NCBI GenBank assembly: GCA_016870355.1
Contig: VGBR01000005.1
Span: 1 to 64,000, forward strand
From: Actinomycetota bacterium
GTDB taxonomy: Bacteria > Actinomycetota > Acidimicrobiia > IMCC26256 > PALSA-555
DNA: 64,000 nt
Direction: 5' to 3'
The notes beneath the pieces were generated by a model, which did no database searches, was not told the origin of the DNA, and was given only the letters and a program-made list of their open reading frames with translations. Shown piece after piece: positions 5,211 through 57,030 of the stretch. Every line of letters starts with the position of its first letter. Positions within the stretch are counted from its first letter, which is position 1. Made by a program: the position numbers and the translations under genes.

Positions 5211-5415
5211 CTGATGGCGCTACGCGCCGAGCCGCACGGGCTGCGGCTACCTGCGTCGCAGGGGACCTGCCTCCATGGTCGACTCCGCAGGCTCCGTCTC
5301 CACCGACGTCGAAGCGGCATAGCCACTTCGACGCCTGCCTCCATGGTCGACTCCGCAGGCTCCGTCTCCACCGACGTCGAAGCGGCATAGCCACTTCGAC
5401 GCCTGCGCCGCGGTC
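5211..5415. repeat. dispersed palindrome copy 2, invaded by two tandem 68-bp units
   Basis: The left palindrome arm GCGTCGCAGG (5253-5262) plus loop GGA and CCTGC (5266-5270) is separated from the rest of the right arm (CCTGCGCCGC, 5402-5411) by two exactly repeated 68-bp units (5266-5333 and 5334-5401). Each unit begins with CCTGC, then CTCCATGGTCGACTCCGCAG, and ends in a hairpin (CGTCGAAG...CTTCGACG). CCTGC therefore occurs three times, as expected for insertion with target duplication followed by tandem amplification. The cluster fills the space between two divergent genes. Confidence 0.85.
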
Positions 5416-5431
5416 GGTAGCCTCCGGCGCG

Positions 5432-20523: not shown

Positions 20524-20632
20524 CACTCTCTGAGGCGCAGGATACCTGCACCTCTGGTCGACTCCGCAGGCTCGGTCTCCGCCGATATCGGGGTGGCAAA
20601 GCCACACCCGATGTCTGCGCCTCGGTCGTTCG
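20524..20632. repeat. dispersed palindrome copy 3, invaded by one 69-bp unit
   Basis: Palindrome arms GAGGCGCAG (20532-20540) and CTGCGCCTC (20615-20623) would pair perfectly but are separated by a 69-bp insert flanked by CTGC repeats (20546-20549 and 20615-20618). The insert shares GGTCGACTCCGCAGGCTC with the units at 5.3 kb and has its own hairpin (ATCGGGGTGGC / GCCACACCCGAT). That stem differs in sequence from the 5.3-kb units but keeps its pairing. The outer element keeps the GGTCGTTCG right flank. It lies inside a same-strand gene pair. Confidence 0.85.
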
Positions 20633-25000: not shown

Positions 25001-25345
25001 GCGCGGTCCCTCGGCGAGCACGACGAGATGCTCACCGGGCGGATCGGCGACACCTCTACTGGCTCGCTCGCTGCGAAACGGGATACCCGTCTCGCAGTCG
25101 TTCGCTCCCCCCCCGGCCCCCAGGGTGAGCTCGGCGCCGAAGACGGTGGGCATCCCCACGGCGGCCGCGGCCAACGCGAAGCGCACGATCCCGTAGAAGC
25201 CGTTGTGGTCGGTGACGGCCAGCGCGGCGAGCCCAAGGCGCGCGGCCTCGTCGACCAGCTCCTCGGGATGGCTCGCACCATCGAGGAACGAGAAGTTCGT
25301 GTGGCAGTGCAGCTCCGCATAGGCATGCTCGACCACTGGTCCCAC
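22049..25345 (-). CDS. dnaE2: error-prone DNA polymerase III alpha subunit DnaE2 (ImuC)
   Basis: A 1098-aa C-family polymerase. The N-terminal PHP domain has E-L-H-C-H-T-N-F-S-F. The catalytic acidic cluster is P-D-I-D-L-D-I-E near residue 432. Helix-hairpin-helix and OB regions follow (T-H-R-Q-Q-P-E-T near 1020). Length and the short PHP domain fit DnaE2 rather than replicative DnaE1. It performs mutagenic translesion synthesis with ImuA'/ImuB. The promoter carries a perfect LexA box. Residues about 81-96 are encoded by an in-frame copy of the window's dispersed palindrome, between A-E-L-T-L-G and D-P-P-G-E-H-L. Confidence 0.93.
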   Translation of the reverse strand: MGPVVEHAYAELHCHTNFSFLDGASHPEELVDEAARLGLAALAVTDHNGFYGIVRFALAAAAVGMPTVFGAELTLGAGGGANDCETGIPFRSERASRGVADPPGEHLVVLAEGPRGHARLARAISAGQMAGEKSAPRFTLTDLADAASAGVHLTANRPSSGNDAWFVLTGCRKGPLARALHADGPAAARRALAGLVDGFGRDRVLVELWDHGDPLDRHRNDALAEVAIRTGVDVIATNNVHYATAQQRPLANALAAIRSRRSLDEIDGWLPASSFAHLRSPAEQQRRFVRWPGAVERTVDIAQRCAFDLRLAAPNLPDLDVPDGHTDMSWLRELTKRGAAHRYPPSHPQHTQAQQQIAHELDVIEQLGFPGYFLLIFEIVEFCKANDIYCQGRGSAANSAVCYALGITKADAVALGLLFERFLSLERDGPPDIDLDIEHQRREEVIQYVYEKYGRDRAAQVANVITYRPKSALREMAKVAGLSPGHADALTKWIDRWGRDHGAFEMAKEEGVAVPELVLDLATQVLDFPRHLGIHSGGMVMADRPLVEFCPVEWARMEDRSVLQWDKDDCASAGLVKFDLLGLGMLTMLHLAVDLVREHEGIEIDLATIPQEDEVYDLLCAADTVGVFQVESRAQMGTLPRLRPRWFYDLVVEVALIRPGPIQGGSVHPYLRRRTGEEPVTYLHPILEPCLRKTLGVPLFQEQLMQIAIDAAGFTPGEADQLRQAMGSKRSRHRMAAMHDRLMQGMAERGIDLDAATEIAHKLEAFAQFGFPESHSVSFAYLVYSSSWMKLHYPAEFVCALLNAQPMGFYSPHTLVRDAVRHGVQTLGPDVNLSRRDCTLEPRTADAGPIGHPRNGWHADPSTRALRIGLRYVRGLSDALLDRIDETFDVHGPFTGLEDFTRRTNAPSDALETLATAGAFGSLGIERREALWAAGALRDARPGTLPGVVTGTEAPALPGMEPIDEINADLWSTGLSPNQHPTEFVREALAARGAVTAEALRGLPDRSVVEVGGVVTHRQQPETSKGVVFINLEDETGLVNVVCTPPVWRRFRKVARTSPALLVRGMLERRQGVINLLAHRIEPLSLRPATLLRSRDFH
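25061..25107. repeat. dispersed palindrome copy 4, inside the dnaE2 reading frame
   Basis: CTGCGA-A-ACGGG (25071-25082), loop ATA, CCCGT-C-TCGCAG (25086-25097). It is preceded by GGCTCGCTCG and followed by TCGTTCGCTC. The loop and the GTCGTTCG flank equal those of the intergenic copies. The element reads through in frame as part of DnaE2, so the protein carries a short non-conserved loop here. Confidence 0.75.
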
Positions 25346-33149: not shown

Positions 33150-33195
33150 CGGCTCACTGCGCCGCAGGATACCTGCGGCGCGGTCGTTCGCCTCA
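33150..33195. repeat. dispersed palindrome copy 5
   Basis: GGCTCACTG precedes arms CGCCGCAGG (33160-33168) and CCTGCGGCG (33172-33180) with loop ATA, followed by CGGTCGTTCGCC. This is the simplest uninvaded form and defines the family: TCACTG, paired arms ending in CAGG/CCTG, ATA or GTA loop, GTCGTTCG. It lies between two same-strand genes. Confidence 0.8.
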
Positions 33196-42449: not shown

Positions 42450-42908
42450 CTAGCGGCTGCGCTTGCGACGCCGCTTCGCAGGCGCCTTCTTGGCGGTGGT
42501 CGTCTTGCGCCGACGCCGCTTCTTGGCCGGAGCCGCCTTCTTCGCCGTCGACTTACGCCGACGCCGCTTCTTGGCCGGAGCCGCCTTCTTCGCCGTCGAC
42601 TTACGCCGACGCCGCTTCTTGGCCGGAGCCTTCTTGGCCGGAGCCGCCTTCTTCGCCGTCGACTTACGCCGACGCCGCTTCTTGGCCGGAGCCTTCTTGG
42701 CCGGAGCCGCCTTCTTCGCCGTCGACTTACGCCGACGCCGCTTGGCCGGGGCCTTCTTCGCAGCTGTTGTCTTCCGACGACGGGTGGTCTTCCGTGCCGT
42801 CGACTTCTTGGCGGTCGCTTTGCGACGCCGCTTCGCCGGCTTACGGGCCGCCGTCCTCTTGGCCGCACTCTTGCGTGCGGTGCGTCTCTTTGCCGGAGGC
42901 ACGGTCAC
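42450..42908 (-). CDS. histone H1-like Lys/Arg/Ala-rich nucleoid protein
   Basis: A 152-aa protein of almost only K, R, A, T, S and P, starting at GTG. The core is a tandem repeat of [16 protein letters not shown] (16 residues, 48 bp, 42520-42740). Some units carry an extra K-A-P-A-K (63-bp period). Such tails resemble the C-terminal domains of mycobacterial HupB and eukaryotic H1 and should bind DNA nonspecifically. The HU gene lies 61 bp upstream on the same strand, so the HU fold and the basic tail appear as two genes rather than one fused HupB. Confidence 0.85.
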
Positions 42909-43706: not shown

Positions 43707-43779
43707 CAGCCCCGAGCAGATTCGAACTGCCGTTTCCGCCTTGAGAGGGCGGCGTCCTAGGCCACTAGACGACGGGGCC
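43707..43779 (-). tRNA. tRNA-Glu(CUC)
   Basis: A 73-nt cloverleaf. Acceptor GGCCCCG pairs with CGGGGCT. The D arm is GTCTAGTGGCCTAGGAC, the anticodon stem CCGCC/GGCGG with loop CTCTCAA (anticodon CTC), and the T loop TTCGAAT. The CCA end is not encoded. It is the last element of the gltX-side transcript. Confidence 0.96.
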
Positions 43780-44551
43780 GGATCCGGCGCCAGCGAGCAC
43801 GAACTCGACGACGCTTGGGGGCTCGGGGGGAAGGACTCGAACCCTCAATGACTGGACCAGAACCAGCAGTGTTACCGATTACACCACCCCCGAATGCGCC
43901 CAGAATAGCGAGTCCCGGTACGAGCTCCCCCACCCGTACCGAGCGACCAAAGCCGAAGATGCGCCCGACCGACACGCGCAGCGCTTCGGACGCGTAGCGC
44001 TTCCACACATCGAAGCCTTCGATCGGACTTGTGCGTGTCGGCGACGTCACCGCGTCGAGCCTGACTTCCTCAGCGATGAGCTTGACGCGCAGCGAGTGGA
44101 ACGGATCCGACACGAGCGTGACCCGATTGAGTCCTCGTTGCTCGAGCACGAGCGCAGAGGCTTGAAGCGACTCGACCGAGTTGTGACTGTCGACCTCGAG
44201 CAGCAGGTCTCCCTCGGGGACGCCCTTGTCGCGGAGGTACGTGAAGCCGGCCTGCGCCTCGGTGAAGCGGTCCCCGGGCTGCTTCCCGCCGGTCACGACG
44301 ATCCGTGGCGCGACGTCTTGGCTCCACAGCGCGAACGCATGGTCGAGGCGGGCTGCGAAGACGTTGCTCGGCCGACCGTCGAACTGCGCCGCGCCCAGCA
44401 CGATGATGGCGTCGGAGGTCCGGCGGTCGTCGTCGTCCGCGGTCATGACCACCTGGCCGAAGGTCACGAGGTAGTAGCCGACGAAGATCAGCCCGACGAC
44501 GATGATCACTCGCCGAACAAGCGCCCACGTCAGCCAGATGGGCAGGGCCAC
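43757..44551 (-). CDS. YdcF/SanA-like DUF218 membrane protein
   Basis: A 264-aa frame. The N-terminal membrane helix is V-I-I-V-V-G-L-I-F-V-G-Y-Y-L-V, followed by the DUF218 core A-I-I-V-L-G-A-A-Q-F-D-G-R-P, V-V-T-G-G-K-Q-P-G-D and D-P-F-H-S-L-R. Members are implicated in envelope or vancomycin-barrier functions. The frame has no stop before tRNA-Gln and reads through it into tRNA-Glu. Residues after about 220 are therefore tRNA-derived, and the functional C-terminus may end earlier or the mRNA be cut during tRNA maturation. It overlaps the gltX 3' end by 22 nt. Confidence 0.8.
   Translation of the reverse strand: MALPIWLTWALVRRVIIVVGLIFVGYYLVTFGQVVMTADDDDRRTSDAIIVLGAAQFDGRPSNVFAARLDHAFALWSQDVAPRIVVTGGKQPGDRFTEAQAGFTYLRDKGVPEGDLLLEVDSHNSVESLQASALVLEQRGLNRVTLVSDPFHSLRVKLIAEEVRLDAVTSPTRTSPIEGFDVWKRYASEALRVSVGRIFGFGRSVRVGELVPGLAILGAFGGGVIGNTAGSGPVIEGSSPSPRAPKRRRVRARWRRIRPRRLVA
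43822..43893 (-). tRNA. tRNA-Gln(CUG)
   Basis: A 72-nt cloverleaf. Acceptor TCGGGGG pairs with CCCCCGA, the anticodon stem is GCTGG/CCAGT with loop TTCTGGT (anticodon CTG), and the T arm is GAGGG-TTCGAGT-CCTTC. It lies 42 nt upstream of tRNA-Glu on the same strand. The whole gene lies inside the open frame of the upstream ydcF-like gene. Confidence 0.95.
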
Positions 44552-47709: not shown

Positions 47710-47714
47710 GGCGC

Positions 47715-47808
47715 GCTCACTGCGGCGCAGGGTACCTGCGCCGCGGCCGTTCGCCAGCGCCGGCGAACACCTCCGGTCACTCCGGTGCCGCGTCCGCGAG
47801 GAGCAGAC
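47715..47808. repeat. dispersed palindrome copy 6, overlapping the cimA stop
   Basis: Arms GCGGCGCAGG (47722-47731) and CCTGCGCCGC (47735-47744), loop GTA, preceded by CTCAC and followed by GGCCGTTCG. The right flank CCGGTCACTCCGGTGCCGCG matches the flank of copy 1 and, on the minus strand, encodes the last residues (A-D-A-A-P-E) and the TGA of cimA. Confidence 0.85.
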
Positions 47809-56902: not shown

Positions 56903-57030
56903 AGACGGGGAGCGAACAGCCGCGGGTCGGTCACCGAGTGGCTCTGCCGCTCGGTGATCACGAGACGGCGCCTGCGCCGTCGACCCTGGAGTTGGTTCCC
57001 GACCCGCAGAGAGCGAGCCCATGGACAAGG

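Follow-up and report, generated by a model that had tools for sequence, protein, structure and literature searches.

Short repeats that sit inside other repeats have been described in several bacteria: in T. roseum the REP GTAG-23 lies within the palindrome CCGSSCC(n3,4)GGSSCGG, which also occurs as hundreds of empty targets (Di Nocera 2013, PMC3733652), and palindrome-inserted REPs are also found in A. variabilis (GTAG-15) and in H. neapolitanus (PMC3733652). REPs are themselves the targets of the autonomous insertion sequences IS1397, ISKpn1, IS621, ISPpu9, and ISPpu10 (PMC1525189), the end hairpins of IS200/IS605 elements have been described (PMC6006769), and the BOX, RUP, and SPRITE repeats of Streptococcus pneumoniae insert into one another (PMC3049150). 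We found no literature on such repeats in Acidimicrobiia. The best overall explanation for the arrangement reported here, and one we consider likely, is that a small repeat, designated B, inserts into the hairpin of a second, palindromic repeat, designated A, and that the composite was then amplified.

B resembles the GTAG-tagged REPs in being a high-copy set of short, mostly intergenic hairpins with a tag-like tetranucleotide at the stem foot (GTAG, GCAG, or CTAG on the bottom strand) and, like GTAG-23 of T. roseum, it sits inside a small palindrome that is also present empty in many copies. Unlike those REPs, B has two adjacent hairpins that are not inverted and a variable tag, and no RAYT was found; unlike their targets, A forms a covarying repeat family in its own right, with a separate distribution, and amplification of the composite is probable. 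With IS200/IS605 elements B shares two hairpins on one strand, one of them bulged, the lack of inverted repeats, a short target on one side, and possible insertion without duplication, but it is only ~68 bp long, holds no tnpA or tnpB, and has no Y1 gene in its genome. It enters a fixed position of a palindromic repeat, as the REP-targeting insertion sequences do, but those are autonomous and B is tiny and non-coding. Its site is fixed and recurs across species, in contrast to the pneumococcal BOX, RUP, and SPRITE repeats, for which the accessible part of the source describes no fixed target position (PMC3049150). B functions like a REP or a miniature IS200 but cannot be classed as one or the other, since a search for the associated enzyme found none. 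What is new relative to these precedents is the presence of two independent covarying families, orthologous empty sites that order the events, recurrence across species, and a probable amplified chimera; such an ordered series (palindrome, insert, amplified chimera) across close genomes is rarely available for tiny bacterial repeats.

The window, by which we mean the whole 64,000-nucleotide stretch analysed, comes from contig 5 of an assembly of 31 contigs and 2.8 Mb, and we searched it with one covariance model for A (R2) and another for B (R1). Four uninterrupted copies of A, at ~60 bits each, lie on the forward strand at 1653–1694 (60.1 bits), 25064–25105 (60.0 bits), 33150–33191 (60.3 bits), and 47713–47754 (60.5 bits). 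The third belongs to the GCAGG-ATA-CCTGC type, into which B is inserted in what we call type 1 composites, and the fourth to the GCAGG-GTA-CCTGC type. Together with two interrupted copies near 5.25 and 20.53 kb, these account for the six palindromes counted in the preliminary description. The sequences TCACTG and GTCGTTCG, given there as common to all of them, are not invariant: the arms vary by copy and the consensus is approximately TCRCT...GGNCGYTCGC. A third interrupted copy, overlooked there, lies near 56.9 kb.

The first composite, on the forward strand, begins with the A left arm GCGTCGCAGG (5253–5262), the loop GGA (5263–5265), and CCTGC (5266–5270), which is the first half of the right arm, as read from the sequence. 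Two identical tandem copies of B follow, each ending in CCTGC, at 5271–5338 (74.4 bits with R1) and 5339–5406 (from repeat comparison, as family D2, and the B model), and then the remainder of the A right arm, GCCGC, with the 3′ flank GGTCGGTAG (5407–5420, from the sequence and the alignment with the relative G003). The second, also on the forward strand and read from the sequence in its A parts, has the left arm GAGGCGCAGG (20532–20541), the loop ATA, and CCTGC (20545–20549), one copy of B ending in TCTGC (20550–20618, 83.9 bits with R1), and the remaining right arm GCCTC with the 3′ flank GGTCGTTCG (20619–20632); nine nucleotides of arm complementarity span the insert. The insert had been described as a single sequence of 64–65 bp at both places, which in respect of a single copy holds at 20.5 kb and fails at 5.2 kb, where there are two copies of 68 bp; these share 74% identity with the copy at 20.5 kb. 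The third composite, of a second type (type 2), occupies 56922–57007 on the reverse strand, where arm complementarity and the fold delimit the arms GCGGGTCGG (57007–56999) and CCGACCCGC (56930–56922) around a B match at 56926–56992 (44.7 bits with R1, reverse strand). The A arms are complementary across the insert yet differ between copies (GAGGCGCAG, GGGCGCAGG, CGGCGGCAGG, and others). When the top strand of the 20.5 kb composite is folded as DNA, the predicted A stem stays closed over the internal hairpins; in the predicted bottom-strand fold of the composite, the left part of A closes locally and not over B.

B is a non-coding sequence of ~65–70 bp (68 bp at 5.2 kb) whose ends are not fixed to the base, and it consists of a six-base leader, GGTCG with a head hairpin, and an adjacent second hairpin. 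In one subfamily the head has only a GNC/GN′C stem of three pairs, and in others it has a full stem, GTCGTCGC-CGCAC-GCGACGAC or GGCATCG-CAGG-CGATGCC; the second hairpin is a stem, a bulge or internal loop, and then GGC-NNA-GCC. Both families covary: with alignments that were model-fitted to their own structures, which favours structure, the margins are still large, at 249 cells changed on both sides versus 90.8 in shuffles for B (79 distinct copies) and 79 versus 21.9 for A. The covariation score of B is 0.448 and at most 0.142 when the structure is slid, and one head pair occurs as CG in 35 copies, AU in 21, GC in 11, and GU and UA in two each. The genome that carries the window holds ~80 copies of B (95 model matches at E<=1, best E 7e-17) and more than 100 of A (131 covariance-model matches at E<=1), and the B core GGTCGACTCCGCAGGCTC recurs with two or fewer mismatches at 30 places in 2.8 Mb, versus none for a reversed control. 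By a home-made gene caller, B is mostly intergenic. The left flanks of isolated B copies vary, and at L145, L150, L174, and L293 two to three copies of B stand in tandem, with a unit of ~63–70 bp.

Among the 61 genomes compared, the genus has B (73, 59, 7, and 3 matches), as does G030 (50), and a few copies occur elsewhere; A occurs both in the genus (98, 99, 33, and 28 matches) and across many further families of the order. A occurs without B in G012 (102 copies), G016 (52), G052 (43), G014 (33), and G029 (20), and B occurs without A in G030, with its 50 copies. On this comparison of sequences, A and B are independent families of small non-coding structured repeats. In a scan of a contig database, two Acidimicrobiia-like MAGs carried the B head, and Pseudonocardia had a similar-looking motif that is tandem in places. 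The head motif alone (GGTCGNCTCCGCARGCTCCGN'CTCC) was present in 19 Pseudonocardia and four MAG stretches (L031–L053), in Pseudonocardia partly as 33-bp tandem arrays (L037, L050); N and N′ of the first copy were complementary in 22 of these 23 stretches with a search pattern that did not require pairing, and the MAG records CAMDCC01 (L034, L044, L053) carry these elements. A phage origin was rejected, as neither the A core nor the B core had an exact match in viral contigs.

The order of events can be read at orthologous loci. G003 has an uninterrupted A and no B at both the 5.2 and the 20.5 kb locus (at 5.2 kb, GTGGCGCAGG-GTA-CCTGCGTCGC); G001 and G002 have no A at the 5.2 kb locus and no B at either, and at 20.5 kb all three relatives carry A or an A remnant without B. 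At 14 further B loci of the window's genome, no relative has B at the orthologous place, and at ~10 of these the flanks align well enough to call the site empty, L019, L025, L027, and L015 being among those with diverged intergenic DNA. A resident A without B in relatives gives the direction, B into A, and makes the event recent on the scale of the genus, so that B is very probably a separate element inserted into A. The preliminary description of a second small element at a fixed site of another repeat is thus borne out: searched as separate models, A and B each occur without the other in some genomes, B stands elsewhere on its own, and relatives do not always carry the insert, G003 having the expected empty sites. 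At the orthologous A corresponding to 20532–20623 of the window (L195–L197), both arms differ concertedly between species (GAGGCGCAGG versus GCGGGCCAGG), as if one arm corrected the other.

The position of insertion is fixed. At least seven composites of the window's genome (those at 5.27 and 20.55 kb in the window and L002, L015, L016, L023, and L156) have the left junction RTACC/TGC, the slash marking the point of entry, with the variant GGACC/TGC at 5.2 kb; ~0.04 copies would be expected by chance, given an intergenic fraction of 8% from the home-made gene caller. All seven lie in the GCAGG...CCTGC type of A, which makes up 11 of the 42 intact copies examined in this genome (26%). The same junction recurs in G001 (L116, L123, L128, L255, L258, L267) and G003 (L124).

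Not every composite need be a separate insertion. In G001, ~30 of the 45 B copies that we read sit in A units, and 22 of them, classified by eye, are of type 2; the junction in most of these is GGGAACCA/B or closely similar to it, and their arms, of many sequences, are still complementary. Type 2 composites of the window's genome are L001, L008, L012, and the copy at 56926 in the window. The common type 2 junction would point to a single original insertion from which the chimera spread, and many of the G001 composites probably descend from one insertion and were then amplified; more generally, we lean towards amplification of composites as units, and where it is likely, as for type 2, a composite cannot always be taken as an insertion of its own. 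An extreme form of this reading is that B entered A once or a few times and that all composites spread as units, through mobility of A or gene conversion between A copies. The derived junction GGGAACCA common to ~20 type 2 copies in G001 fits it, but A was resident before B at two window loci, the B copies at those loci are only 74% identical, the arms of type 1 composites differ, and B also occurs in a second hairpin of the A unit, all of which make so small a number of insertions unlikely. The copies in that second hairpin, three in G001 with the form GGCGCTACGC/B/GCC (L283, L291, L292), belong to B subfamily 2 and the hairpin is the same as GGCGC-TAC-GCGCC of the window; one further G001 copy lies in the left arm of A (L278).

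The ends of B bear on how it moved. The CCTGC direct repeats had been noted as a possible target-site duplication. They do flank the inserts, but duplication is unproven, since a 3′ CTRC or CTAG also ends isolated copies. At the empty sites of L010 and L011 the tetranucleotide is ancestral on one side and has no copy on the other, without duplication, a pattern that insertion 3′ of a target would leave if nothing were duplicated. On the top strand T(A/G)(C/G) follows the 3′ end of B in most of 32 high-scoring copies, and on the bottom strand the stem foot in the high-scoring subfamily reads GTAG, GCAG, CTAG, or TTAG, GTAG itself appearing only in some copies. With flanks assigned by hand, 8 of 29 copies have matching 3-mers on the two sides, versus 3.0 in shuffles (p 0.001), as TGC..TGC and TAG..TAG.

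We propose that B is a gene-less, non-autonomous mobile element composed of two abutting hairpins. It would prefer hairpin-forming DNA and enter A in its right arm, immediately 3′ of the loop, at RTACC/TGC, leaving A arms that can still pair and enclose both B hairpins. Insertion may have taken place while A was single-stranded or extruded, through a single-strand reaction like that of IS200/IS605 or TnpA-REP, with an enzyme that came from outside these genomes, has since disappeared, or has diverged too far for Y1_Tnp to recognise; in G001 the type 2 composite would later have multiplied as a whole. A Y1/HUH-type single-strand enzyme as the mover of B is a tentative suggestion that we rate below even. 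The preliminary description had noted that the window contains no transposase or RAYT gene, and no Y1 or RAYT match was found across the whole assembly, window included. PF01797 (Y1_Tnp, TnpA/RAYT) had no match in the eight B-bearing genomes searched (G000–G003, G030, G039, G043, G050), among them G001, rated 100% complete, so no autonomous parent with ends matching B was found there; a Y1_Tnp gene is present in five of the 61 relatives, none of them B-bearing. RAYT/TnpA was accordingly rejected as the mover, given the lack of a PF01797 match in the window's own genome and its B-bearing relatives.

The agreement of flanking 3-mers above the shuffled level could reflect a 3-bp target duplication, which would fit a different enzyme. 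Under that reading B is a DDE- or IS110-type non-autonomous element with target-site duplication instead of a substrate of single-strand HUH chemistry, and elements of the IS110, IS3, IS4, IS5, and IS256 families do insert in REPs (PMC1525189). We think it improbable: the B copies listed have, by eye, no terminal inverted repeats, the empty sites L010 and L011 show no duplication, and the IS110 (DEDD) transposase has only partial matches, in the window's genome (G000) and G001, and none in G002, G003, or G030. IS110 was rejected as the mover, its presence tracking neither B nor A. How REP-like elements move without a recognisable REP transposase has been asked earlier for CGTC REPs (PMC3733652), and B poses the question again. 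Insertion of B into A at a fixed site beside a hairpin loop makes single-stranded DNA directly testable as the insertion substrate. The most far-reaching version, that B is a new minimal mobile element of two abutting hairpins and ~68 nt, moved by an enzyme still to be identified, whose target is the extruded hairpin of another repeat and whose chimera then became mobile itself, seems to us rather doubtful; if true, the birth of a new composite repeat family has been caught across four species.

The strong covariation of A and B, together with the closeness of A to gene boundaries, often no more than a few tens of bases away, could instead indicate conserved regulatory RNA, with A and B as 5′-UTR hairpins or terminators and the composite as a modular RNA. 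This is very unlikely, as the species of the genus do not share the positions of these repeats, gene pairs of every orientation flank B, no U-tract or T run was found 3′ of the B hairpin, and Rfam searches matched neither repeat; an intrinsic terminator and a known RNA family were rejected on the last two counts. Some IS families excise precisely, and type 2 composites resemble one ancestral unit, but an ancestral composite from which B was precisely lost to leave intact A at orthologous sites is scarcely credible, because A is widespread in families wholly without B, the 5.2 kb locus has A without B in G003 and no A in G001 or G002, B would have to have been lost independently at every examined locus that can be called empty, and the four present species already suggest that uninterrupted A is basal at several loci.

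A is apparently the centre of a larger unit, seen in L084–L113, in which sequence like TCGCTGGCGAGCGCC often follows it and, in some copies, a GGCGC-TAC-GCGCC palindrome and a GGGCC..GGGCC hairpin precede it; in the window the small palindrome upstream of A was read from the sequence at 5216–5228 on the forward strand. Many A copies in this set seem to be located immediately upstream of an opposite-strand start codon. Elsewhere in the window, 48- and 63-bp tandem repeats at 42471–42821 lie in a likely coding region and probably encode a lysine/alanine-rich tail. The only Rfam matches obtained were two tRNA genes on the reverse strand, at 43707–43779 and 43822–43893.
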